Source: Bradyrhizobium sp. CCGUVB1N3
GTDB lineage: Bacteria > Pseudomonadota > Alphaproteobacteria > Rhizobiales > Xanthobacteraceae
Length of the DNA: 64,000 nt
Direction: 5' to 3'
NCBI RefSeq assembly: GCF_024199925.1
Contig: NZ_JANADR010000001.1
Coordinates: 2,790,001 to 2,854,000, forward strand
In this document: piece after piece, positions 33,132 to 45,255 of the stretch
Numbering within the stretch: the stretch's first letter is position 1
How the letters are laid out: the number at the start of each line of letters is the position of its first letter
Made by a program: the position numbers and the translations under genes
Notes under the pieces: generated by a model
The model's input: the letters and a program-made list of their open reading frames with translations, nothing else
Told to the model about the DNA's origin: nothing
The model's database searches: none

Positions 33132-35834
33132 TCAGCTCGCCGCGCCGGCGAAGTTTGCTTCCTTCGCCGCCCCGCCCGTCTCCGCAATCAGCCGCTTGAG
33201 CTGGGGAATGCAGGAGCCGCAATTGGTGCCGGCTTTGAGTTTTGCGCCGATCTCGGCCGCGCTGCGCGCGCCGGCAGAGATGGTGTCGCAGATGGTGGCG
33301 CGGCCGACGCCGAAGCAGGCGCAGACCACGGGACCGGTCGAGGCGACGCCTTCGGTCGATTTGCCCGAGAGCAACAGGCGGCGCTGCTCGTCGCTGACGC
33401 TGTCTGCCGCGAACAGGCTCTTCACCACTTCCCAGTCGCCGGCATCATGGGCAGGCCCGATGAACAGGCAGGTCTCGATGCGATCGTCGACGAAGGATGC
33501 GGCGCGATAGACGCCGCCGCCGAAATCGCGATACTCCGCGATATCCTCACCGGCGATCCCCTGGAGCCAGGCCGGCCAGCGCGACAGATCCGCATTGTCG
33601 GCGAAGAGATAGCCGTAGCCGCCGCCGATCGCGGCACGCGCCCACCACAGATGCGGCGGCAGCGCGAGCTGCTTGCGCGAGAGCGCAAAGCCGCGGAAGA
33701 CGTACTCATACGGCGCGATCGCGGCCGGGGTCGCCTTGGCTTCCGGCTGCCCCGAAAACGGATCGTTGAACGACTGCACCAGCGCGCCGATGCGGCCGTG
33801 CGAAGTGTTCATCGCGCTCCAGTGGATCGGCACGAACAGCGTGCCGCGCTGCTGGCGCTCGCTGACCACGACTTTCAGGATGCACTGGCCGTAGTCGGTG
33901 GTGACGCGGGCAAAGCTGTCGTCGGTGACGCCGTATTTGCCGGCGTCATCGGGATGAACCTCGACAAACGGCTCCGGCAGATGCGCCCCAAGCCGCTGGC
34001 TGAGGCCGGTGCGGGTCATGGTGTGCCACTGGTCGCGGATGCGTCCGGTGTTCAGCCGCAGCGGTCGCCCCGCATTGGTCTCGCTGCGCAGCGCCGGCAC
34101 CTCCGGTGCGACGAAACGGCCCTTGCCGTCATTGGTGAAGAAGCCGCCGTTCGCGAAGAAACGTTCTCCGGACGGCTGGCCCTCGCGCGCCGGCCATTGC
34201 AGCGGCACCAGCGCATCATAGGCTTCGTCCGAGACCGATTGCAGCGCGCCGATGTCGAAGTCACGGCTGCCATCGTTCTCGAACGCCGAGAGCGCGGCAT
34301 GCTCGCGGAAGATCTCGGCGGCCGATTTGTAGTTGAAGCCCTCGCCGAAGCCGAGGCGCTTTGCGACCTCGCTCAGAATCCACCAGTCCGGCCGCGCCTC
34401 GCCCGGCGCCGGCAAGAACGAGCGCTGCCGCGAGATGCGGCGCTCGGAATTAGTCACCGTGCCCGACTTCTCGCCCCATGCGAGCGCGGGCAACAGCACA
34501 TGCGGCCCCGCCTCGACCGTATCGTTGGCGAGCACGTTCTCCGAGACCACGAACAGCTCGAGCTTCTTCAGCGCCTCGCGCACGAGGTCGGCATCCGGCA
34601 GCGACACCGCAGGATTGGTGCCCATCACCCACAGCGCCTTGACCTCGCCGCGGTTGATCGCCTCGAACAGCTGCACCGCCTTCAGCCCTTCATGGGTGGC
34701 GATGCGCGGCGCCTTCCAGAACCGGCGCACGCGATCGATCTCGGGCGGCGTGAAGTTCATGTGCGCGGCGAGCTGGTTGGCGAGCCCGCCGACCTCGCGC
34801 CCGCCCATCGCATTGGGCTGTCCCGTGAGCGAGAACGGCGAGGCCCCTGGCTTGCCGATGCGGCCCGTGGCGAGATGGCAGTTGAGGATGGCGTTGACCT
34901 TGTCGGTGCCCTGCGCCGACTGGTTGACGCCCTGCGAGTACAGCGAGACGACCCGCTCCGTCTCGCGGAACATCGCAAAGAACGCCGCGACGTCCTGCTC
35001 CGACAAACCGGTCGCGAGCGCCGTCGCAGTGACGCTGCCGGCGATGCTGCGCGCACGTGCCAGCGCATCGTCGAAGCCCGACGTGTTATCCGCGATGTAG
35101 TCCTTGTCGAGAGCGCCGCTGTCGGCGAGATGGACGAACAGGCCGGAGAACAGCGCGGTGTCGGTACCCGGCTTGACGCCAAGGAACAGGTCGATATCGC
35201 TTGCGGTGTCGGTGCGGCGCGGATCGATCACGACGATGCGCGCACCGCGCTCCTCCTTGTTCCTGCGCATGCGCTGGAACAGGATCGGATGGCACCAGGC
35301 CGCATTGGAGCCGACCAGCACGAGCAGGTCGGCTTTGTCGAGATCCTCGTAGCAGCCGGGCACGGTGTCGGCGCCGAAGGCGCGGCGATGGCCGGCGACC
35401 GAGGACGACATGCAGAGTCGCGAATTGGTGTCGACATTCGCCGTGCCGACAAAGCCCTTCATCAGCTTGTTGGCGACGTAGTAGTCCTCCGTCAGCAACT
35501 GGCCGGAGAGATAGAAGGCGACCGCATCCGCGCCGTCGCGCGCCACGATATGCTGCATGCGATGGGCGACATGGTCGAGCGCGTCGCTCCAGGCGACACG
35601 TTCCATGACGCCTTTGCAGCGGATCATCGGATAGAGCAGACGTCCCTCGAGTCCGACGGTCTCGCCGAGCGCCGAGCCCTTGGAGCAGAGCCGGCCGAAA
35701 TTGGCGGGATGCTCGGAGTCGCCGGCGATCGCAGCGCCACCGTTGCCGTCGGGCGTTGCCAGCACGCCGCAGCCGACGCCGCAATAGGGGCAGGTCGTTC
35801 GGGTGGTGCGGAGCGTCGGATCGATCGCAGTCAT
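33132..35834 (-). CDS. nasC: Assimilatory nitrate reductase, molybdopterin catalytic subunit
   Basis: The 900-residue protein has the N-terminal 4Fe-4S site (CPYCGVGCGV, then RLCSKG). The molybdopterin-guanine-dinucleotide domains follow (YLSGQLLTEDYYVANKLMKG, MGTNPAVSLPDAD), then the C-terminal dinucleotide-binding domain (GRIRDQWHTMTRTG). A last 2Fe-2S BFD-like domain has CACFG and NCGSC. It reduces nitrate to nitrite in the cytoplasm, with electrons probably from the flavoprotein encoded 14 bp upstream. It is the last gene of the nrt-bjgb-narK-flp-nas cluster. The nitrite reductase gene is not in this window, as reported for B. japonicum where nirA maps elsewhere with nasST. Confidence 0.95.
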   Translation of the reverse strand: MTAIDPTLRTTRTTCPYCGVGCGVLATPDGNGGAAIAGDSEHPANFGRLCSKGSALGETVGLEGRLLYPMIRCKGVMERVAWSDALDHVAHRMQHIVARDGADAVAFYLSGQLLTEDYYVANKLMKGFVGTANVDTNSRLCMSSSVAGHRRAFGADTVPGCYEDLDKADLLVLVGSNAAWCHPILFQRMRRNKEERGARIVVIDPRRTDTASDIDLFLGVKPGTDTALFSGLFVHLADSGALDKDYIADNTSGFDDALARARSIAGSVTATALATGLSEQDVAAFFAMFRETERVVSLYSQGVNQSAQGTDKVNAILNCHLATGRIGKPGASPFSLTGQPNAMGGREVGGLANQLAAHMNFTPPEIDRVRRFWKAPRIATHEGLKAVQLFEAINRGEVKALWVMGTNPAVSLPDADLVREALKKLELFVVSENVLANDTVEAGPHVLLPALAWGEKSGTVTNSERRISRQRSFLPAPGEARPDWWILSEVAKRLGFGEGFNYKSAAEIFREHAALSAFENDGSRDFDIGALQSVSDEAYDALVPLQWPAREGQPSGERFFANGGFFTNDGKGRFVAPEVPALRSETNAGRPLRLNTGRIRDQWHTMTRTGLSQRLGAHLPEPFVEVHPDDAGKYGVTDDSFARVTTDYGQCILKVVVSERQQRGTLFVPIHWSAMNTSHGRIGALVQSFNDPFSGQPEAKATPAAIAPYEYVFRGFALSRKQLALPPHLWWARAAIGGGYGYLFADNADLSRWPAWLQGIAGEDIAEYRDFGGGVYRAASFVDDRIETCLFIGPAHDAGDWEVVKSLFAADSVSDEQRRLLLSGKSTEGVASTGPVVCACFGVGRATICDTISAGARSAAEIGAKLKAGTNCGSCIPQLKRLIAETGGAAKEANFAGAAS

Positions 35835-35848
35835 TCAGGCGACATCCA

Positions 35849-37066
35849 TCAGGCGGCTTTGGGGGGAAGCGCGAGCGCGCGGCCGAACATCATGTCGGTG
35901 CGGATCGCGGCGACCTTCTCGCTATTGCGGATCAGTTCGAGATACCAGAGCGCGTCCACGGTATCGCCGATCAGCACGGCGCCGGTGAGTCTGCCGTCTG
36001 CGATCACCAGCTTCTTGTAGGTGCCGCGCCTGCGATCGGAGAGCACGAGGCTCTCGCTGCCCTCGCCGCCGACGAAATCGCCGGCCGAGAACACGCTGAC
36101 GCCGGATACCTTCAGATTGGTCGAGACCACGCTGCCCTGATAGGCGGCACTCTTCCCGGCGAGATGCCGCGCCAGCACGCGCGCCTGCTCATAGGCCGGC
36201 TCGACGAGCCCGTAAGCGGTGCCGCGATGTTCGGCGCATTCGCCGAGCGCGAAGATGTCGGACTCGCTGGTCTGGAGGCAATCGTTCACGACGATGCCGC
36301 GATTGACAGCAAGCCCCGCCTCCTTCGCGACCGCGACGTTCGGCCGAATGCCGGCCGCAAAGATCACGGCATCGGCCTCGATGCGGCTGCCGTCGGCAAG
36401 CTCGACGGCCTCGACGTGGCCGTCGCCATGAATGCATTTGGTGCTGGCGTTCAGAACGACGTGGATGCCCTTGCGCTCGACCAGCGTCTTGAGCAACTCG
36501 GCGGCCGGCAGATCGAGCTGGCGCTCCATCAGGCGGTCCATCAGATGCAGCAGCGTCACCGGTGCACCCGCTTTCGCAAGACCATAGGCCGCCTCCAGTC
36601 CCAAGAGGCCGCCGCCGACCACGACGACGCGCTTCCTGGCTGCTGCGAGCGTCAGGAGGAGATCGACGTCGCGGCTGTCGCGAAAGGTGTGGACACCTGC
36701 GAGATCCGCACCCGGCACGTTCAGCCGCAGCGGCGTCGAGCCGGTGGCGAGGACAAGCTTGGAGTATTCCATGCTCTCCTCGCCGGCGATCTTCAGTTCG
36801 CGACGGCCGACATCGATCTCGGTGACGCGATAGCCGTAGCGCACGGTGACGCCGCGCTGCCGCCACCAGTCGGCCGGCCTGAGCTCGATCTCGTGCGAGC
36901 CGGTCTCGCCCGCAAGCACGGACGAGAGCAGCACGCGGTTGTAAGCGAGCCGCGGCTCTTCGCCGATCACAGCGACTGCGTAACGGCCGAGCGCGGTCTT
37001 GGCGAGTTCATCGACCAGACGCGCTGCCGCCATACCGTTACCGACGATGACGAGCGGTTCACTCAT
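35849..37066 (-). CDS. flp: FAD/NAD(P)H-dependent oxidoreductase of nitrate assimilation
   Basis: The 405-residue flavoprotein resembles the N-terminal half of NirB-type nitrite reductases and rubredoxin reductases. It has an FAD motif (LVIVGNGMAAARLVDEL), an NAD(P)H motif (RVVVVGGGLLGLEAAYGLAK near residue 145) and the second FAD motif (IFALGECAEH). In B. japonicum the equivalent gene, flp, is placed in this cluster and thought to pass electrons to NasC and/or Bjgb. It lies between narK and nasC and starts after a short REP-like stem. Confidence 0.9.
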   Translation of the reverse strand: MSEPLVIVGNGMAAARLVDELAKTALGRYAVAVIGEEPRLAYNRVLLSSVLAGETGSHEIELRPADWWRQRGVTVRYGYRVTEIDVGRRELKIAGEESMEYSKLVLATGSTPLRLNVPGADLAGVHTFRDSRDVDLLLTLAAARKRVVVVGGGLLGLEAAYGLAKAGAPVTLLHLMDRLMERQLDLPAAELLKTLVERKGIHVVLNASTKCIHGDGHVEAVELADGSRIEADAVIFAAGIRPNVAVAKEAGLAVNRGIVVNDCLQTSESDIFALGECAEHRGTAYGLVEPAYEQARVLARHLAGKSAAYQGSVVSTNLKVSGVSVFSAGDFVGGEGSESLVLSDRRRGTYKKLVIADGRLTGAVLIGDTVDALWYLELIRNSEKVAAIRTDMMFGRALALPPKAA

Positions 37067-37100
37067 GAAAGTCCTCTATTCTACAGCCTGAGGGATGCTC

Positions 37101-37118
37101 CTCCCCGCGTACGGGGAG
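37101..37118. repeat. REP-like hairpin between narK and flp
   Basis: CTCCCCG and CGGGGAG form a 7-bp stem around CGTA in the 74-bp gap between narK and flp. As an intra-operon stem it may stabilise or attenuate the message. It resembles short palindromes scattered in rhizobial genomes. Confidence 0.55.
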
Positions 37119-37140
37119 AAGCGAGATTCGTACCAATCCT

Positions 37141-38532
37141 CTACACTCGCGCTTCGGCAAGGCTCGGAGCACCTTCGGCTTGCGGGCCGCGACGCAGGTA
37201 GAACCACCAGGTCAGCCCGAGGCAGGAGGCGTAGAAGGCGAGATAGATCGCGAGCGCGAGCTGCGGCCCGCCGGTCATGGCGATCGACTTGCCGAACCCG
37301 GTCGGGATCAGATAGCCGCCGACCGCGCCGACCGCGCCGATGAAGCCCACGGCCGCACCGCTTTCGATGCTCGCCGTCTTCAGCGCGAGCGCACGCGCCG
37401 CATCGCCCTTGCCGCGCACCTTGAACAGGTTTTCCTCGCGGAAGATCGAGGGGATCATCCGGTAGGTCGAACCGTTGCCGATGCCCGTCGTGACGAACAG
37501 GATCAGGAACATCGCAAGGAAGCCCAAGAAATCCTTCTGCCCGACGAAATAGAGCACGCCGATCGTCGCCGCCGCCATCGCGATGAAATTCCAGAAGGTG
37601 ATGATGGAGCCGCCGACCTTGTCGGCAAGCCAGCCGCCGAGCGGGCGCGACAGCGAGCCGACCAGCGGACCGAGGAAGGCGATCGAGATCGTCATCGCGG
37701 GGAACTGGGTCTTGATCAGCAGCGGAAACGCCGCCGAGTAGCCGATGAACGAGCCGAAGGTCCCGATATAGAGATAGGCCATGATCCAGGTGTGCTTGCG
37801 CTTGACGATCGCGAGCTGGTTCTTCACCGACGACTTGGCCGAGGTCAGGTTGTTCATGAAGAACACAGCGCCGAACACCGCGATCGCGATCGGCAGCACC
37901 CACATCAAACCGGCGTTCTGAAGGAAGATGCCGTCGACGGGCGTCGCCTGGAACAGGTTGATGACGCCGAGTGTCATCAGGATGGGCGTCAGGAGCTGCA
38001 CGCTGGAGACACCGATATTGCCGCCGGCCGCGTTGAGACCGAGCGCCGATCCCTTCATCCGGTCGGGGAAGAAGAAGGAGATGTTGGTCATGCTGGAGGC
38101 GAAATTGCCGCCGCCGAGGCCTGCGGTCGACGCAACAAGCAGCATCAGCCAGAACGGCGTGTCGGGCTGGCTCACGAAATAAGCAAGCGACATCGTCGGG
38201 ATGAACAGGATCGCCGCGCTGAAGATGGTCCAGTTGCGGCCGCCAAAGGTCGTGACCGCGAAGGTATAGGGAAAGCGCATGAAGGCGCCGATCAGGCCCG
38301 GCACGGCGACGAGCTGGAAGAGCTGATCGGTCGTGTAGTGGAAGCCTGCCTGCGGCAGTTTGGTGGTCACGATGCTCCAGATCAGCCAGACCGAGAAGCC
38401 GATATGCTCGGCCACGATCGACCAGATCAGGTTACGCCGCGCGACAGTCTTGCCAGTCGCATTCCAGAACGCCTCGTCTTCGGGGCGCCAGTCTGAAATC
38501 CAGGTCGGATTTCCGGTCGGATTCTTCGTCAT
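37141..38532 (-). CDS. narK: NarK-type nitrate/nitrite transporter (MFS)
   Basis: The 463-residue protein has about 12 membrane segments. It has NarK-family signatures: glycine-rich GLGGGNFASSMTNISFFFP near residue 135, GNIGVSS, and a second motif near residue 390 (ESGAAVGFIGAVGAVGGYLI). Conserved arginines occur in RFPYTFAVTTFGGRNW and GPLVGSLSRPLGGWLADKVG. It should move nitrate and nitrite across the inner membrane, taking up nitrate and/or exporting nitrite. It has its own 419-bp upstream region, with a promoter module that duplicates the one before nrtA. Confidence 0.93.
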   Translation of the reverse strand: MTKNPTGNPTWISDWRPEDEAFWNATGKTVARRNLIWSIVAEHIGFSVWLIWSIVTTKLPQAGFHYTTDQLFQLVAVPGLIGAFMRFPYTFAVTTFGGRNWTIFSAAILFIPTMSLAYFVSQPDTPFWLMLLVASTAGLGGGNFASSMTNISFFFPDRMKGSALGLNAAGGNIGVSSVQLLTPILMTLGVINLFQATPVDGIFLQNAGLMWVLPIAIAVFGAVFFMNNLTSAKSSVKNQLAIVKRKHTWIMAYLYIGTFGSFIGYSAAFPLLIKTQFPAMTISIAFLGPLVGSLSRPLGGWLADKVGGSIITFWNFIAMAAATIGVLYFVGQKDFLGFLAMFLILFVTTGIGNGSTYRMIPSIFREENLFKVRGKGDAARALALKTASIESGAAVGFIGAVGAVGGYLIPTGFGKSIAMTGGPQLALAIYLAFYASCLGLTWWFYLRRGPQAEGAPSLAEARV

Positions 38533-38650
38533 TGATAATCCCTTTTGGTCTCACCGCTGCGTCGTTGCAGGCTCAGCCTCCACGCATGGAGGCACGCTCC
38601 GAGGCTTCCCCCCGGTGGCGAGTTCACGATGCTGATTGATGATGTCTGGG

Positions 38651-38668
38651 GACGTCGTCGTTGGCGTC
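38651..38668 (-). promoter_or_regulatory. Candidate NasT/ANTAR-type leader stem, narK
   Basis: On the minus strand, GACGCC, a six-base loop AACGAC and GACGTC form a stem with one mismatch and a C-G closing pair. The loop has A at position 1 and G at position 4, as in hexaloops recognised by ANTAR antiterminators such as NasT/NasR. It starts about 12 nt after the sigma54-like -12 element. A second stem, required in known ANTAR targets, was not found with confidence. Confidence 0.35.
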
Positions 38669-38680
38669 GCAAAATGACAT

Positions 38681-38697
38681 TTCAAATTCCATGCCAA
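38681..38697 (-). promoter_or_regulatory. Sigma54-like -24/-12 element of narK
   Basis: The minus strand reads TTGGCATGGAATTTGAA. TGGCAY-N5-TTG matches the RpoN consensus, but the -12 GC is GA. The nrtA element has the same deviation at the same place. Confidence 0.5.
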
Positions 38698-38769
38698 CTG
38701 CGCGCGATCGGGAAATACAGGAATTTCAGCGACTTATTCGAACGGCCCGAAATTTTCGCAGGCCATTTT

Positions 38770-38813
38770 CGCATGCAAATTTTGCGATTCGCTCAATCCT
38801 TGTGCGACGCACA
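38770..38813 (-). promoter_or_regulatory. Putative enhancer of narK (NtrC-like dyads plus GTGCG palindrome)
   Basis: Two 17-bp imperfect dyads, CGCAC-N7-GAGCG (38790-38806) and CGCAA-N7-ATGCG (38770-38786), lie with centres 20 bp apart. Their spacing pattern is that of NtrC sites. A perfect dyad TGTGCG-T-CGCACA (38801-38813) overlaps the first. The block is about 75-120 bp upstream of the sigma54-like element and is strongly conserved with the nrtA copy. Confidence 0.45.
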
Positions 38814-38951
38814 AAGATTGAGCGAGATGTCGATTACTTGGGCGCGCGATGCAGGGGGTAACGACGCGTTTACGCGGCTTCGGCGAAGCGCGCACACAAG
38901 TTCGCATGGTCGCCGCACTTCGCGCGAGCACTACGCCCTTCCGGATGCTTC

Positions 38952-39377
38952 CTACTCGGCCGCCTGCGGCCGGCCATAGGCCTCAGTGATCATGAAATTG
39001 GAGAGGACGCCGTAGGCTGCGGTCCAGGCGGAAGCGACCTCAGGCGTCCAGGCTTCACCGAGGCCTTTTTCCAACGTCCAGAGCAGTGCGGAGCCCACCA
39101 CCGGATAATGCTCCGCCTTCGCGCCATAAGCGACGTGACGCTTTGCCAGCGCGCTCGCGGCGGGCAGGATCGATTCAAGGTTGGAAAGACCGCCGACGAC
39201 GATTGCGAGCGTTGCCATCAGCTTCTTGCGCTGATCGGTCAGGTCGGCCGGAAACATCGCCTTCACGGAAGGCGCGACTTCGAACAAACGATCGTAGAAA
39301 ATGACAGCGGCCTTTTCCGAGATCGGTGCGACCTTGGCAAAGCTGTCCTGGACTAATTTGATTTGCGTCGGATTCAT
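38952..39377 (-). CDS. bjgb: Single-domain haemoglobin (Bjgb type)
   Basis: The 141-residue globin has a Tyr at the B10 position (VIFYDRLFE), helix C Pro (MFPADL), the proximal His in LAKRHVAYGAKAEHY near residue 84 and the H helix (WTAAYGVLSNFMI). It lacks the reductase domain of flavohaemoglobins. The flavoprotein encoded downstream may be its electron donor. In B. japonicum the matching protein is linked to nitric-oxide detoxification during nitrate assimilation. It lies 97 bp after nrtC. Confidence 0.92.
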   Translation of the reverse strand: MNPTQIKLVQDSFAKVAPISEKAAVIFYDRLFEVAPSVKAMFPADLTDQRKKLMATLAIVVGGLSNLESILPAASALAKRHVAYGAKAEHYPVVGSALLWTLEKGLGEAWTPEVASAWTAAYGVLSNFMITEAYGRPQAAE

Positions 39378-39474
39378 CTCAAACTTCCTTAGGTGACGTG
39401 ATCAAGAGAGACCCGTTGGTCGCGACGCCGGCGCTTTGGTTCAATGCCAGTGCTTCCCGCGCCACACACCTGGA

Positions 39475-40269
39475 CTACGCCGCCTCGACGAAGCGATGAC
39501 GCTCGTAGAGGAATTCGAGCACGCGCTGGCGGCACTTCAAGTAAGTGGCGTTCGACGCGAGCTCGAGCCGCTTGCGAGGACGCGCGAGCGGCACGTCCAA
39601 CACCTCGCCGATGTGCGCGCTCGGCCCGTTGGTCATCATCACGATACGGTCGGACAACAGCACGGCCTCGTCGACGTCGTGGGTGATCATCAGAATCGTG
39701 TTGCCGAGCTTCTGATGCAGCGCCATCACCGAGTCCTGCAAATGCGCGCGGGTCAGCGCGTCGAGCGCGCCGAAGGGCTCGTCGAGCAGGAGCACCTTCG
39801 GCTCCATCGCGAGCGCACGCGCAATGCCGACGCGCTGCTTCATGCCGCCGGAGATTTCCGACGGACGCTTGTCCTTGGCATGGGCCATCTGCACGAGGTT
39901 GAGATTGTGCATGACCCAGGCCTCGCGCTCGGCCCGCTTCTTGGTCCTGGCAAACACCTTGTCGACGCCAAGCTTGACGTTCTCGAACACGGTCAGCCAG
40001 GGCAGCAGGCTGTGGTTCTGGAACACCACGGCGCGATCGGGTCCGGGCGAGTTGGCCTCGCGGTTCTCCAGCAGCACGCCGCCGGTCGAGGCGCCGGTCA
40101 GACCTGCGATGATGTTGAGCAGGGTCGACTTGCCGCAGCCGGAATGGCCGATGATCGAGACGTATTCGCCCTTCTCGATGGTGAGGTTGATGTCCTTCAG
40201 CACCTCGGTGGTGGCGGCACCGCGGGTAAAGATCTTGTCGATGTGATCGAGCTTCAGATAGGCGGTCAT
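39475..40269 (-). CDS. nrtC: ABC-type nitrate transporter ATPase
   Basis: The 264-residue ABC ATPase has Walker A (GHSGCGKSTLLNIIAGL), the signature (EISGGMKQRVGIARAL) and Walker B with the catalytic Glu (VLLLDEPFGALDALTR). The switch His follows (MITHDVDEAVLLSDRI). It lacks the extra NrtA-like domain of cyanobacterial NrtC and so corresponds to a compact NrtC/NrtD ATPase. It powers the NrtAB importer, whose genes precede it with a 12-bp gap. Confidence 0.93.
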   Translation of the reverse strand: MTAYLKLDHIDKIFTRGAATTEVLKDINLTIEKGEYVSIIGHSGCGKSTLLNIIAGLTGASTGGVLLENREANSPGPDRAVVFQNHSLLPWLTVFENVKLGVDKVFARTKKRAEREAWVMHNLNLVQMAHAKDKRPSEISGGMKQRVGIARALAMEPKVLLLDEPFGALDALTRAHLQDSVMALHQKLGNTILMITHDVDEAVLLSDRIVMMTNGPSAHIGEVLDVPLARPRKRLELASNATYLKCRQRVLEFLYERHRFVEAA

Positions 40270-40281
40270 GTGCCCTCTCCT

Positions 40282-41181
40282 TCAGTTCTGCGCGGTGCCG
40301 TGGGTGACGAACTTGCCGAGGCCCGCGATCAGGCGGTCGAGCACGAAGCCGATGATGCCGACATAGAACAGTGCCAGGATGATCTCGCTGATATGCGAGG
40401 AGTTCCAGGCGTCCCAGATGAAGAAGCCGATGCCGACGCCGCCGATCAGCATCTCGGCCGCGACGATCGCGAGCCAGGAGAGGCCGATGCCGATACGCAG
40501 GCCGGTGAAGATGTAGGGCGCGGCCGCGGGGATCATGATCTTGCCGAAGAACTCCAGCGGATTGAGCTGCACGACGGCCGCGACGTTGCGGTAGTCCTGC
40601 GGGATGTTGCGGATGCCGACCGCGGTGTTGATGATGATCGGCCACACCGAGGTGATGAAGATGACGAAGATCGCCGAAGGCTGCCCGTCGCGGAAGGCGG
40701 CGAGCGAGAGCGGCAGCCAGGCGAGCGGCGGGATGGTGCGAAGGACCTGGAATAGCGGATCGAGTCCGCGCATCGCCCAGACCGATTGCCCGACCAGCGT
40801 GCCGAGCGCGATGCCGACGATGGCCGCGATCGAGTAGCCATAGGCGACGCGCTGGAGGCTGGCGGAGAGATGCCAGAACAGGCCCTTGTCGATACCGCCG
40901 TGGTCGAAGAACGGATCGAGGATCAGCTCCTTCGTATCCTTGAACACTTTCGACGGCGGCGGCAGCGTGGAGCCGGCGCGGCGGCAGATGAGCTCCCAGA
41001 CCAGCATCGACAACGCGAGCACGACGAGCGGCGGGATGACGCGGACCGCGGTCTCCTTTGCCATACGAGCGTATGTCTCGGCGCGCGGCGGGCGCTTGGG
41101 TGTCATCGCGACGACCGACGCGGCCGCGCCGGCGGAAGGTGCAACACCTTCGGCGTCGATCTTCTTCACGGACATGTTCAT
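40282..41181 (-). CDS. nrtB: ABC-type nitrate transporter permease
   Basis: The 299-residue membrane protein has a hydrophilic N-terminus of about 45 residues and then about six membrane segments. The EAA-like loop is VQLNPLEFFGKIMIPAAAPYI. WLAIVAAEMLIGGVGIGFFI is typical of nitrate/sulfonate permeases. It forms the channel of the NrtABC importer. It is 59 bp after nrtA and 12 bp before nrtC. Confidence 0.93.
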   Translation of the reverse strand: MNMSVKKIDAEGVAPSAGAAASVVAMTPKRPPRAETYARMAKETAVRVIPPLVVLALSMLVWELICRRAGSTLPPPSKVFKDTKELILDPFFDHGGIDKGLFWHLSASLQRVAYGYSIAAIVGIALGTLVGQSVWAMRGLDPLFQVLRTIPPLAWLPLSLAAFRDGQPSAIFVIFITSVWPIIINTAVGIRNIPQDYRNVAAVVQLNPLEFFGKIMIPAAAPYIFTGLRIGIGLSWLAIVAAEMLIGGVGIGFFIWDAWNSSHISEIILALFYVGIIGFVLDRLIAGLGKFVTHGTAQN

Positions 41182-41240
41182 CGAAATCGTTCTCCGGCTG
41201 CAATGGCGATGCGGCCGCCCATGGGCGGCCGCGGGACCTG

Positions 41241-42557
41241 TCAGACTTCGACGCGCTTGATCGCGAGCGACTTCAGATAGGCAGCCGGATTTTCGGGATC
41301 GAACACCTTGCCGTCGAAGAAGGTCTCCTTGCCGCGCGAGGTGGAGGCCGGAACATCAGCGGCTGCAACGCCCAGCGTCTTGGCCGCGTCCTTCCAGAGG
41401 TCCTCGCGGTTGACCTTGGCGATCAGCGCCTTGGTGTCGAAATTGGGTTCGTACTTGCCCCAGCGGATGTCTTCGGTAAGGAACCAGAGGTCATGACTCT
41501 GGAACGGATAGGACGCATTGTCCTTCCAGAAGCGCATCTGCTGCGGCGAGTTCTCGACGATGCGGCCGGTGCCGTAGTCGAACTTGCCTTTCATGCGGTC
41601 GGTGACGTCCTCGACCGGGCAATTGATCCACTGGCGCTTGGCGCAGATCGTCGCTGCTTCCTCGCGGTTCTCGACCTTCTCGGCCCATTGCTGGGCTTCC
41701 ATCACCGCCATCAGCAGTGCTTTCGTCGCCTTCGGATATTTGTCGACGAAGGCCGCGCGCATGCCGAACGACTTCTCGGGATGCTTGTCCCAGAGTTCAC
41801 CGGTAGTGACCGCGGTGTAGCCGATCTCCTGGTGGATGAGCTGGAGGTTCCAGGGCTCGCAGACGCAGAAGCAATCCATCGTGCCAACCTTCATGTTAGC
41901 GACCATCTGCGGCGGCGGCACGACGATGGTTTCGATGTCCTTGTCGGGATCGATCCCGCCGGCGGCAAGCCAGTAGCGGATCCAGAGGTCATGCGTGCCG
42001 CCGGGGAAGGTCATCGCGGCCTTCACGGCCTTGCCGGAGGCCTTCTTCTTGTCCAGCGCGACCTTGAACGGCGCGGTGTCGATTCCAACCTTGATGTCGG
42101 CATATTCCTTGGCGACCGAGATGCACTGTCCGTTCAGGTTGAGCCTTGCCAGGATGTACATCGGCGTCGGCTGATTGTTCTGCGTCACCTTGCCGGCGGA
42201 GATCAGATACGGCATCGGAGTGAGGATGTGCGCGCCGTCGATGCCGTTGCCTTCGGAGCCGAGCACGAGGTTGTCGCGCGTCGTGCCCCACGAGGCCTGC
42301 TTCTGTACCTCGACATCGGGCATGCCATATTTGGCGAAGATGCCCTTCTCCTTGGCAACGAACAGCGGGGTCGCATCAGTGAGCGCGATGAAGCCTAGCT
42401 TGGCGCCCTTGACCTCGGGGCCTGATTCTTGCGCGAACGCACCTGCGGGGAAATTCAGCTTGGCGGCGGCGAGAAGTGCGGCGGTGCTACCGGTCGCTTT
42501 CAACAATTGACGGCGGCTGAGGCCGCTCGCGGAGGGGCGGCGAATGCGCTTGGTCAT
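41241..42557 (-). CDS. nrtA: ABC-type nitrate transporter substrate-binding protein
   Basis: The 438-residue protein starts with a twin-arginine signal (LSRRQLLKATGSTAALLAAA), so it is probably exported folded. The mature part resembles NrtA/CmpA: GFIALTDATPLFVAKEKGIF, QASWGTTRDNLVLGSEGNGI and a late CVCEPWNLQLIHQEIG. It should bind nitrate, possibly nitrite, in the periplasm. It is the first gene of the cluster and follows a 343-bp region with a sigma54/NtrC/leader-type control module. Confidence 0.93.
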   Translation of the reverse strand: MTKRIRRPSASGLSRRQLLKATGSTAALLAAAKLNFPAGAFAQESGPEVKGAKLGFIALTDATPLFVAKEKGIFAKYGMPDVEVQKQASWGTTRDNLVLGSEGNGIDGAHILTPMPYLISAGKVTQNNQPTPMYILARLNLNGQCISVAKEYADIKVGIDTAPFKVALDKKKASGKAVKAAMTFPGGTHDLWIRYWLAAGGIDPDKDIETIVVPPPQMVANMKVGTMDCFCVCEPWNLQLIHQEIGYTAVTTGELWDKHPEKSFGMRAAFVDKYPKATKALLMAVMEAQQWAEKVENREEAATICAKRQWINCPVEDVTDRMKGKFDYGTGRIVENSPQQMRFWKDNASYPFQSHDLWFLTEDIRWGKYEPNFDTKALIAKVNREDLWKDAAKTLGVAAADVPASTSRGKETFFDGKVFDPENPAAYLKSLAIKRVEV

Positions 42558-42707
42558 AGGTCGTGTCGTCCTTTGCGTCGTTGCAGAGATGGTGCGTCAG
42601 TGCACACGAGCCCGCCTGTCCGGTGACGCCGCCTTTGGCGCATGCGAACGCATGACGGAGAGACCCCCGTCCGGTGGCGTCGGCAATTCGGATGAGAAGT
42701 CTCGCGG

Positions 42708-42725
42708 GACGGCATCAGTGGCGTC
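42708..42725 (-). promoter_or_regulatory. Candidate NasT/ANTAR-type leader stem, nrtA
   Basis: The minus strand reads GACGCCACTGATGCCGTC: a stem with one C-C mismatch, a C-G closing pair and loop ACTGAT with A1 and G4. It corresponds position for position to the stem before narK, although the loop and 3' arm differ in sequence. That covariation supports an RNA role. The partner stem is not identified. Confidence 0.38.
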
Positions 42726-42736
42726 GGCACAAACTA

Positions 42737-42753
42737 TTCAAGCTTTGTGCCAA
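42737..42753 (-). promoter_or_regulatory. Sigma54-like -24/-12 element of nrtA
   Basis: The minus strand reads TTGGCACAAAGCTTGAA. The -24 block is a perfect TGGCAC, while the -12 block is TTGAA instead of TTGCA. GGCACAAA here also pairs with TTTGTGCC just downstream, which gives a DNA dyad over the promoter. Confidence 0.5.
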
Positions 42754-42826
42754 GCGGGACAGCGCGAATATTATTTATAAATCAATATATTAAGGCATGG
42801 GAACAGATTGTCGCAGGCCTCTGTTC

Positions 42827-42870
42827 CGCATGCAGAATTTGCGACCTGCCCAGTTCTTGTGCGGCGCACA
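42827..42870 (-). promoter_or_regulatory. Putative enhancer of nrtA (NtrC-like dyads plus GTGCG palindrome)
   Basis: CGCAC-N7-GGGCA (42847-42863) and CGCAA-N7-ATGCG (42827-42843) have centres 20 bp apart. TGTGCG-C-CGCACA is at 42858-42870. Most bases over this ~45-bp block are identical to the narK copy, and its distance to the -24/-12 element is the same within 1 bp. Confidence 0.45.
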
Positions 42871-42900
42871 TAAACTAGGCAGGCGCTGGGAGGGCCGCTC

Positions 42901-43818
42901 TCACGCGTGCTCCGCGACCTTCACCCCGAGCGGCTTGGGAGCCAAACCGCTGCCCGGCTTGAGGTGGAATTCATAAGTCATCAGGTGCCAGGGCGCAGCC
43001 GCCTTGCCGCCGTCGGGCATCGCCGGATCGGCGCGTTTCTCGACCTTCGCGATCAGCTCGTCCTTGACGCCGAACACCACGTCGGAATCCAGGTATTTGT
43101 CGCCGCCAATGAAGACGTGGGTGATCAGGGGCTCATAGCCCTTGGCGTTGACCAGGAAGTGAACGTGCGCGGGCCGCATCGGGTGGCGGTTGGTCTGCAC
43201 GATCATCTCGCCGACCGGTCCGTCAGTCGGGATCGGATAGCTGCAGGGCAGAATGGTGCGAAAGAAAAAGCGGCCGTCACTGTCCGTGACGAACCGCGCC
43301 CGCGCCGAAGCGCCAACCTCGTCGTAGTTCGGCTTCTGGGAATCGTAGAAGCCGTCGTCGTCGGCGTGCCAGACGTCGACCGGAACATTCGCGAGCGGCG
43401 CACCGCTGAGATCCGTGACACGGCTCTGCACGAACATCCTCTCGCCGGTCAGGTTATGCGGCGAGATGTCGGTGCCGTGCGCGGTCACCTTGTGCTCGCC
43501 GACATAGAAGGGACCGAGCACCGTCGTCTCGGTGGCGCCGTCGCGGTCGCGGTGGTTCACCGCGTCGACCAGCATGGAGACGCCGAGCACGTCGGAAAGC
43601 AGGATGAACTCCTGGCGGGTGTCGGTGCACTTTTGTCCTGTACGGGTCAGGAAATCGATCGCATAGTCCCATTCCTCGAAGGTGAGGCCGGTCTTGCTCA
43701 CGTAATCGTGCAGCGACTTCACCAATTCCTGGAGCAGGAACTTTGCACGCGGATTGGGCGTGTTGTCGAAGCTCTTGATGACGGCCTCGGTAAGCTCGGT
43801 CTCGTTGAACTGGGTCAT
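42901..43818 (-). CDS. Intradiol ring-cleavage dioxygenase (hydroxyquinol/catechol 1,2-dioxygenase type)
   Basis: The 305-residue enzyme has the N-terminal helical dimer domain of catechol-type dioxygenases and the Fe(III) ligands: a Tyr in FYDSQKPNYDE, a Tyr in LPCSYPIPTDG and two His in MRPAHVHFLV. VLGPFYV is also typical. It should open a catechol, or more likely hydroxyquinol (1,2,4-trihydroxybenzene), between the hydroxyls. No maleylacetate reductase lies nearby. It is separated from the nrt cluster by the nrtA promoter region. Confidence 0.88.
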   Translation of the reverse strand: MTQFNETELTEAVIKSFDNTPNPRAKFLLQELVKSLHDYVSKTGLTFEEWDYAIDFLTRTGQKCTDTRQEFILLSDVLGVSMLVDAVNHRDRDGATETTVLGPFYVGEHKVTAHGTDISPHNLTGERMFVQSRVTDLSGAPLANVPVDVWHADDDGFYDSQKPNYDEVGASARARFVTDSDGRFFFRTILPCSYPIPTDGPVGEMIVQTNRHPMRPAHVHFLVNAKGYEPLITHVFIGGDKYLDSDVVFGVKDELIAKVEKRADPAMPDGGKAAAPWHLMTYEFHLKPGSGLAPKPLGVKVAEHA

Positions 43819-43980
43819 TTCTCTTTCCCGCTGTCCGATTTTCTCGTTGTTTGGCCTGACGGCGTTCCGCTGCGGAGCCTACACCAGCCGGGCATACGGC
43901 GTTAAGCGCGACCGGCTTGGAATGGAGCCCTCATTTCGGCTATCACCTCCCCACAAGAACACTCCGGAGGAACGTTCCAG

Positions 43981-45255
43981 ATGCTCGCCCCCACCCCCGC
44001 CTCGCCCGAATCCGTCGGCATGTCCAAGGCCGCGCTCGACCGCGTCGATGCGCATCTGAAGAACCGGTATGTCGATGCCGGCCGCTTCCCGGGAACGCAG
44101 CTCCTGGTCTATCGCCGCGGCAAGATCGCCCACCGCTCGGTGCTGGGCCTTGCCGACGTCGAGCGCGAGGTACCGGTCAAGGACGACACCATCTACCGCA
44201 TCTATTCCATGACCAAGCCACTCACCAGCGTCGCCTTCATGATGCTGGTCGAGGAAGGCCTCGTCGCGATCGACGAACCCGTGCACAAGTACATTCCGGA
44301 ATGGAAGGACCTCGGCGTCTTCGTCGCCGGCACGAACCCTGCCTTCCTGACCCGGCCGCCGTCCCGGCCGATGCAGATCGTCGACCTCCTGCGGCACACC
44401 TCGGGACTGACCTACGGCTTCCAGCAGCGCTCCAATGTCGATGCGGCCTATCGCGAGCAGAAGATCGGCGAGGTCGAGAAGGCCGGCACGCTGCAGACGA
44501 TGATCGAGGGGCTCGCCAAGATCCCGCTGGAGTTCTCGCCGGGCGATGCCTGGAACTACTCGGTCTCAACCGACGTGATCGGCTATCTCATCGGCAAGAT
44601 TTCGGGAATGCCGTTCGAGCAATTCCTGAAGCAGCGCATCCTCGACCCGCTCGGCATGACCGACACCGATTTCCACGTGCCCGCCTCCAAGGCGCACCGC
44701 TTCGCGGCCTGCTATTCCGCCGATCCGCAGGGCGGCATGACCTTCCATGCCGGCCAGCGCCGTCAGGGCCTGACGCTGCAGGACGACCCGACGACGAGCT
44801 CGTTCCTGTCGCCCCCAGATTTCATCTCCGGCGGCGGCGGTCTGTGCTCGACCGCTGCAGACTATCTCACCTTCTGCCGCGCGCTGATCAATGGCGGCGA
44901 ACTCGGGGGCGTCAGGCTGATCGGACCGAAGACGCTGGCGCTCATGACGACCAACCACATTCCGGGCGGCCACAGCCTGCCCGACGTGTCTCGCTCGCTG
45001 TTCAGCGAAGCGACGTACAATGGCATCGGCTTTGGCCTCGGCGTCGCCGTGACCATGCGCCCCGCCGAGACACTCATTGCGGGCAGCCCCGGTGAATATA
45101 ATTGGGGCGGCGCCGCCACCACCTCGTTCTGGATCGATCCGGCCGAAGAGCTGATCACGATCTTCATGACGCAGGTTCTGCCGTCGAGCGCCTACCCGAT
45201 CCGGCGCGAGCTGCGCAGCATGGTCTACGCCGCGATCACCGAGAGCAATCTGTAG
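43981..45255 (+). CDS. Serine hydrolase, beta-lactamase/EstB (class C-like) family
   Basis: The 424-residue protein has the Ser-x-x-Lys motif as S76-M-T-K79 (YRIYSMTKPLTSVAF) and a Tyr-x-Ser motif as Y193-S (GDAWNYSVSTDVIGY). The C-terminal GGGGLCSTAADYLTF segment is usual in the family. No signal peptide is visible, so it is probably a cytoplasmic esterase or amide hydrolase such as EstB, not a resistance enzyme. It starts 8 bp after a GGAGGAA ribosome site. Confidence 0.88.
   Translation: MLAPTPASPESVGMSKAALDRVDAHLKNRYVDAGRFPGTQLLVYRRGKIAHRSVLGLADVEREVPVKDDTIYRIYSMTKPLTSVAFMMLVEEGLVAIDEPVHKYIPEWKDLGVFVAGTNPAFLTRPPSRPMQIVDLLRHTSGLTYGFQQRSNVDAAYREQKIGEVEKAGTLQTMIEGLAKIPLEFSPGDAWNYSVSTDVIGYLIGKISGMPFEQFLKQRILDPLGMTDTDFHVPASKAHRFAACYSADPQGGMTFHAGQRRQGLTLQDDPTTSSFLSPPDFISGGGGLCSTAADYLTFCRALINGGELGGVRLIGPKTLALMTTNHIPGGHSLPDVSRSLFSEATYNGIGFGLGVAVTMRPAETLIAGSPGEYNWGGAATTSFWIDPAEELITIFMTQVLPSSAYPIRRELRSMVYAAITESNL

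Follow-up and report, generated by a model that had tools for sequence, protein, structure and literature searches.

Putative PhaR boxes in conserved sigma54-type promoters upstream of the nitrate-assimilation genes nrtA and narK of Bradyrhizobium

The window analysed here, a stretch of 64,000 nucleotides from Bradyrhizobium sp. CCGUVB1N3 (contig NZ_JANADR010000001.1, positions 2,790,001 to 2,854,000), carries on its minus strand, in this order, the nitrate transporter genes nrtA-nrtB-nrtC, a globin gene, narK, and NirB-like and NasC-like genes (Table 1). An earlier sequence-only reading of the window described two control modules of equal length, one upstream of nrtA (42708-42870) and the other upstream of narK (38651-38813), and its account of their layout is borne out. 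Both modules are 163 bp long and contain, on the minus strand, the palindrome TGTGCG-Y-CGCACA, two 17-bp dyads, a TTGGCAY-N5-TTGAA element and a stem with a six-base loop, while TGCAACGACGCA begins 28 nt upstream of the nrtA start codon and 37 nt upstream of that of narK. The equal total length is the balance of small differences, the distance from the start of the palindrome to TTGGCA being 117 bp in the nrtA module and 116 bp in the narK module. The dyads of the nrtA module, CGCACAAGAACTGGGCA and then CGCAAATTCTGCATGCG, start 20 bp apart, and those of the narK module are CGCACAAGGATTGAGCG and then CGCAAAATTTGCATGCG, where the second begins at 38786, 21 bp before 38765. In ungapped comparison, 37 of the first 47 positions of the modules are identical (the next best 47-mer elsewhere in the window reaches 26/47), the middle has diverged (16/63) and the promoter ends share 28 of 53 positions. 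The two palindromes are the only places in the window that match TGTGCG-Y-CGCACA with at most one mismatch; shuffled sequences gave a mean of 0.31 such places, and two or more in 4 of 100 shuffles.

The central palindrome TTGTGCRNYGCACAA of the two modules is probably a binding box for PhaR, the regulator by which the stored carbon polymer polyhydroxybutyrate (PHB) is sensed, as its letters suggest. PhaR of B. diazoefficiens has been footprinted with DNase on TGCGACGCACAA and TGCGTCGCACAA of phaP1 and on TGCGCTGCACAA of phaP4, with the consensus TGCRNYGCASMA, and its binding to DNA is abolished by PHB (PMC6201568). The narK core is identical letter for letter to both phaP1 sites, as it reads TGCGTCGCACAA on the minus strand and TGCGACGCACAA on the plus strand, while the nrtA core reads TGCGCCGCACAA, which is listed for the PhaR-repressed gene bll2363 (PMC6201568); both modules fit the footprint-derived consensus. 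The PhaR motif of S. meliloti is a similar palindrome around YGCRNYGCR (PMC12542648). In the 10.4-Mb genome, TGTGCGNCGCACA occurs exactly at three places, those of nrtA and narK and C1:1970859, the last of which precedes a phasin gene, named by eye from its protein sequence and the published phaP1 boxes. Among phasin loci of the genus (the best 30 of the matches listed in 60 genomes), the PhaR core is present in 30/30 and the 13-mer in 29/30, with a second box ~30 bp further on. This genome encodes one PhaR, identified by a single PF07879 match above the cut-off, and the core is absent from all three of its P-II loci. The leading palindrome had been seen in the sequence-only reading without being recognised as a PhaR box, and this assignment is the most novel part of the present analysis.

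Conservation was assessed in the best 80 of at least 535 NrtA-encoding relatives in species genomes. Four of the 81 nrtA upstream regions (shorter than 350 nt) and nine without a sigma54 match were left out of the module counts, leaving 68 nrtA and 26 narK rows, those of the window among them, that were long enough and had a sigma54 match. With the pattern TGCRNYGCA, the core stands in register before the sigma54 element in 60/68 nrtA and 26/26 narK rows, at 113-118 bp from TTGGCA in 52 nrtA rows, 128-140 bp in eight, and 114-115 bp before narK; it also occurs somewhere within 500 nt in seven of the nine nrtA loci dropped for want of a sigma54 match. The central base varies, and its neighbours are, by the pattern used, nearly always R and Y. 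Across the 80 loci (1,077,286 bases), TGTGCRNYGCACA was counted 75 times: 50 times upstream of nrtA, 24 times upstream of narK and once elsewhere.

Genomes of the genus (146), family (248) and order (397) were also scanned with patterns combining box and sigma54 element, each accompanied by a backward-pattern control; an 11-base core was used in the family and order scans. The combination was found in 95, 30 and 17 genomes, respectively, at no more than two places per genome, and all backward-pattern controls gave 0. From these scans 68 loci were inspected (30 from the genus scan, 30 from the family scan and eight outside the family from the order scan, with some genomes represented twice), comprising 39 nrtA, 18 narK, one fnt-like (L282) and one CysJ-like (L281) locus, one contig edge (L302), and the eight outside the family (seven genomes, five families), where five NrtA-like proteins (34-74% identical), one of the NarK family, one NirB-like protein and one UrtA are encoded. 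Box and promoter are thus nearly restricted to nitrate/nitrite genes, which follow them in 65/68 loci; in L326 and L327 the box lies inside clusters with NirB-like and NasC-like genes, and neither glnK nor amtB is among the 68. The earlier reading took the blocks to be under selection in two promoters serving a single pathway and named their absence from related genomes as one refutation; both the 80-locus footprint and the genome scans came out in its favour.

The core at nitrate promoters is embedded in a longer palindrome, with GC at +-15/16 and A/T at +-12. GC arms stand on both sides in 57/60 nrtA rows, 26/26 narK rows and 28/30 family-scan loci, in 0/88 phasin-locus boxes (counted strand-wise; the right arm alone in 24/88), and in 11/114 other cores of the 80 loci, among which nrtA sites with variant flanks may remain. 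Each arm forms with the adjoining inner half of the core a GC-N11-GC pair, and the next dyad has the same form; GC-N11-GC is the half-site spacing of enterobacterial NtrC. The left and right pairs and the next dyad (D0L, D0R and D1) are present in 59/60, 58/60 and 58/60 nrtA rows and in 26/26 narK rows each, with centres at -9, +9 and +29 bp, i.e. 18-20 bp apart, against a background in which such a pair occurs in 12% of 8-offset windows. A fourth dyad (D2), sought over 16 offsets, is present in 37/60 nrtA and 23/26 narK rows; by eye, the nrtA module of the window has none. The PhaR half-sites thus appear, from their positions, to double as the inner halves in two dyads of the NtrC type, which makes direct competition between PhaR and NtrC likely. 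NtrC control, as the sequence-only reading had suggested, is rendered plausible by the half-site spacing, which stops short of proof.

The same arms and dyads are the basis of the strongest rival explanation, an NtrC-only enhancer. In this view three or four NtrC dyads form an array, two of them abut and thereby make up the palindrome, and its resemblance to a PhaR box is due to chance. Such an array would account for GC-N11-GC in both arms and the dyad that follows, in nearly all nrtA and all narK rows, for the retention of the outer arms at nitrate promoters and not at phasin loci, and for the location upstream of a sigma54 element. We consider it unlikely, however, as the core matches a footprinted PhaR site in every letter, is missing from the three P-II loci of this genome, and occurs without arms before fnt in 8/9 loci and before one urtA, and as no glnK/amtB was among the 68 scan loci inspected; moreover, the inner half-sites begin with C (55/60) and the outer ones with T (55/60). 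The P-II loci of this genome, one of which (1/3) has GCA-N9-TGC upstream, offer too few sites for an NtrC consensus. A scan of 60 genus genomes for dyad plus sigma54 element, judged by eye, matched in 36 (backward controls in 4), at nrtA/narK and scattered other places.

Another nitrate-specific regulator might instead read the extended 33-bp palindrome without PhaR, as the two-sided arms are a feature of nitrate promoters only and the combination of box and promoter hardly occurs outside nitrate/nitrite genes. This explanation is improbable, since no candidate gene was identified in this analysis, the core is an exact match to a known PhaR site, and phasin promoters of the same genomes have this core too. 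Far less probable still is that the palindrome acts as an RNA hairpin, either a terminator or the 3' end of an upstream transcript. It is a long inverted repeat whose start in the window is ~30 bp past a dioxygenase-like gene, and pairing at some arm positions exceeds the expectation from column shuffling. A terminator or RNA hairpin is nevertheless disfavoured because the upstream neighbours vary and the distance to the sigma54 element does not: in many loci kilobases separate the dioxygenase from the palindrome, others have a divergent fnt, and the gene before narK is either nrtC or that of the globin. No T-run follows the palindrome.

Several places of the core lie outside the nrtA and narK modules. 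The fnt operon of this genome adjoins a two-domain sulfite/nitrite-reductase-like frame and has a sigma54 element; the core stands without arms 56-57 bp before that element in eight of nine fnt loci (L250-L258), this genome included, and the ninth lacks both. In 12 of 21 further loci (L259-L279), a second fnt gene (~46% identical) is divergent to an nrtA-type TTGGCAY...TTGAA element with the PhaR core between them, and one box may serve both directions. Outside the family, box and promoter without outer arms precede the urea transporter gene urtA (L315:1501-1638), which reflects either chance or an extension of this control to urea. The combination of box and sigma54 element is also present in one family genome before a sulfite-reductase flavoprotein-like, CysJ-like gene (PRK06214; L281:1479-1).

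The promoter elements of both modules have TGGCAY with a 5-bp gap to TTG. The -12 box of sigma54 promoters usually holds a GC dinucleotide; both modules have TTGAA here, without GC. An IHF (integration host factor)-like sequence, TAA-N4-YTGAWW, the consensus of this protein, lies 39-41 bp before TTGGCA in 21/26 narK and 15/60 nrtA rows and is a lead only. In an rpoN mutant of Bradyrhizobium sp. DOA9, expression of nrtA, nrtB, fnt and nirA falls (PMC13207237), and as nrtA is rpoN-dependent in this strain, the TTGAA element works like a sigma54 promoter despite its -12 box. RpoN control, another proposal of the earlier reading, is thus supported by both the conservation of the element and the DOA9 mutant. 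The DOA9 authors place the -24/-12 sequence of nrtA at -103 (PMC13207237), with which the conserved TTGGCATGAAGCTTGAA upstream of DOA9 nrtA, at -203 (L093), does not coincide; the conserved element looks the better promoter candidate.

A 5' leader element, GACGCC-N6-GNCGTC, starts 11-12 nt after TTGAA in 59/68 nrtA and 26/26 narK rows, and its loop has A at position 1 and G at position 4 (A1/G4) in all 85 rows where the element was found, in agreement with the hexaloop rule for ANTAR regulators (PMC3369931). In the window, each stem has one mismatch (C.C in nrtA, C.A in narK) beside the loop-closing pair. Near the start codons, two A1/G4 hairpins separated by 6 nt precede nrtA in the window, and one precedes narK; published eut leaders have paired hairpins with linkers of 5-12 nt. 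Across the relatives, at least one A1/G4 hairpin lies near the nrtA start in 31/79 rows (two or more in 14/79) and near the narK start in 26/26 rows (exactly one in 23). No T-run of a terminator overlapping the leader hairpins was seen by eye, and RNAalifold of 50 nrtA leaders, all 150-200 nt long, yielded no convincing consensus. Folds compared with shuffles gave z of 0.95 and 1.04 for nrtA and -1.49 and -2.02 for narK, and an Rfam scan of 37000-44000 returned no credible family, only five sub-threshold animal, plant or archaeal models. NasT hairpins before narK have already been proposed in print; in that study, loss of nasT raised narK expression under denitrifying conditions instead of lowering it (PMC6759348). 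The suggestion of NasST antitermination stands in part: the A1/G4 loops speak for it, whereas a close hairpin pair was met only near the nrtA start and the response of narK in the nasT mutant is opposite.

On this evidence, read from sequence and its conservation, we favour with a rough probability of 60% the explanation that both modules act as sigma54 promoters for operons of nitrate assimilation and each integrate nitrogen, carbon-store and nitrate inputs, where competition between PhaR and NtrC is likely. NtrC-type dyads would report nitrogen status as enhancer of the TTGGCAY-N5-TTGAA promoter. When PHB is lacking, PhaR would bind the core, hide the inner halves of two NtrC dyads and hold nitrate assimilation down. 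When PHB accumulates (carbon surplus with nitrogen short), PhaR would be displaced from DNA, so that phosphorylated NtrC could fill the dyads and fire the promoter. Nitrate might then act through NasT on the leader, where the A1/G4 hexaloop hairpins are candidate targets. The stronger form of this explanation, that PhaR and NtrC compete for the same half-sites of a composite palindrome and the PHB store thereby gates nitrate assimilation directly in several families of the order, is put forward more tentatively. Repression is the expected sign from PhaR biology. The nifR gene (blr4486), which presumably heads the ntrBC operon, is also among the PhaR-repressed genes published with a box (2-fold), and PhaR-activated genes have been published as well.

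Several points weigh against this explanation. The R-N-Y rule suits a Y-GCA half-site of either PhaR or NtrC, two abutting NtrC dyads could also produce the core, and the outer arms belong to no PhaR site known to us. Eight of the 68 nrtA rows with a sigma54 match lack an in-register core, and the nine loci without such a match come in addition; outside the family the arms are weaker, with both GC arms in 5/8 loci and A-12 together with T+12 in 1/8. Related genomes are not independent, and some of them (e.g. G000, G020, G039, G091, G097 and G137) appear in more than one scan. No match was obtained in 51/146 genus genomes with patterns that exclude longer spacings and core variants, and as these patterns demand both core and promoter, they cannot measure the frequency of core-free nitrate promoters. 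Furthermore, the main texts of two PhaR studies in B. diazoefficiens (PMC6201568 and PMC10888616) do not mention blr280*, nrt or narK, and no link between PhaR and nitrate assimilation was found in titles and abstract openings of Creative Commons-licensed PubMed Central papers. The cells for the phaR-mutant RNA-seq were grown in tryptone-yeast extract (TY) medium, conditions described as nitrogen-rich and free of PHB. As the nitrate operons should be off in TY, these data are uninformative on them and neither support nor exclude PhaR control.

Among 25 loci with a narK match, 24 have narK first, and the order nrtC-globin-narK is shared only with L066 (B. guangdongense). B. diazoefficiens has narK-bjgb-flp-nasC in this order, and a separate promoter drives its nrtABC genes (PMC4724949). 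The narK module stays before narK in either order. One contig labelled Streptomyces sp. AcH 505 (L079) bears an nrtA 89% identical to that of the window and is probably from a contaminating alphaproteobacterium.

Table 1. Genes and putative control elements of the nrtA-narK region (window positions)
Feature	Position	Strand	Remarks
nrtA, nitrate ATP-binding cassette (ABC) transporter substrate-binding protein	41241..42557	minus	
nrtB	40282-41181		after nrtA
nrtC	39475-40269		after nrtB
Single-domain globin gene (bjgb-like)	38952-39377		between nrtC and narK
narK, nitrate/nitrite major facilitator superfamily (MFS) transporter	37141..38532	minus	match below curated cut-off
NirB-like flavin adenine dinucleotide (FAD) protein	35849-37066		after narK; match below curated cut-off
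NasC-like reductase	33132-35834		after NirB-like gene; match below curated cut-off
nrtA extended palindrome, core and outer GC arms at +-15/16	42848..42880	minus	
PhaR-type box TGTGCGCCGCACA, central palindrome of nrtA module	42858..42870	minus	sequence match, putative
nrtA dyad D1 CGCAAATTCTGCATGCG, 17 bp, NtrC-type spacing	42827..42843	minus	presumed NtrC site
nrtA sigma54-type -24/-12 element TTGGCACAAAGCTTGAA	42737..42753	minus	
nrtA 5' leader stem GACGCC-ACTGAT-GCCGTC	42708..42725	minus	A1/G4 hexaloop
nrtA leader hairpin TGC-ACTGAC-GCA (TGCACTGACGCA)	42593..42604	minus	A1/G4 hexaloop
nrtA leader hairpin TGC-AACGAC-GCA	42574..42585	minus	A1/G4 hexaloop; before start
narK extended palindrome, 33 bp	38791..38823	minus	nearly perfect
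PhaR-type box TGTGCGTCGCACA of narK module	38801..38813	minus	sequence match, putative
narK dyad D1 CGCAAAATTTGCATGCG, 17 bp	38770..38786	minus	
narK further GC-N11-GC dyad D2 TGCGAAAATTTCGGGCC	38744..38760	minus	
narK sigma54-type -24/-12 element TTGGCATGGAATTTGAA	38681..38697	minus	
narK 5' leader stem GACGCC-AACGAC-GACGTC	38651..38668	minus	A1/G4 hexaloop
narK leader hairpin TGC-AACGAC-GCA	38558..38569	minus	before start

If the explanation favoured here is true, a single protein displaced by PHB would tie the use of nitrate to a surplus of carbon in soybean symbionts that are denitrifiers as well. Recognition by PhaR would also explain a conserved site that goes unmentioned in the available text of the NasT, RegR and RpoN papers cited here.

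Among the closest known systems, RegR boxes have been proposed in the same promoter region, before blr2806 (narK), and blr2806-09 are RegR-dependent (PMC4064962). A RegR box was rejected as a reading of the site, since RegR gave no gel shift with a blr2806 fragment (-214 to +34) in that study (PMC4064962); the fragment would miss the palindrome if the latter is situated near -266 to -293, its location in relatives. With the leaders of the NasS-NasT and NasR systems (PMC3369931), which carry the ANTAR motif, the modules share A1/G4 hexaloops and, near the nrtA start, two hairpins ~6 nt apart, whereas the narK rows have mostly one hairpin near the start and narK is up in the nasT mutant (PMC6759348). 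A -24/-12-type element and upstream GC-N11-GC dyads 18-20 bp apart are shared with NtrC-sigma54 enhancer promoters of the glnA type; unlike these, the modules lack the usual GC in their -12 box (TTGAA), and the half-sites of the putative PhaR box also belong to two dyads. The PhaR boxes of alphaproteobacteria, such as those of phaP1 in B. diazoefficiens, of the same genus, and of S. meliloti, have the same core TTGTGCRNYGCACAA with a free central base. The phaP1 boxes flank the -35 sequence, however, while ~115 bp separate the box described here from the sigma54 element that follows it, and this box is part of a longer palindrome whose outer GC arms are conserved.

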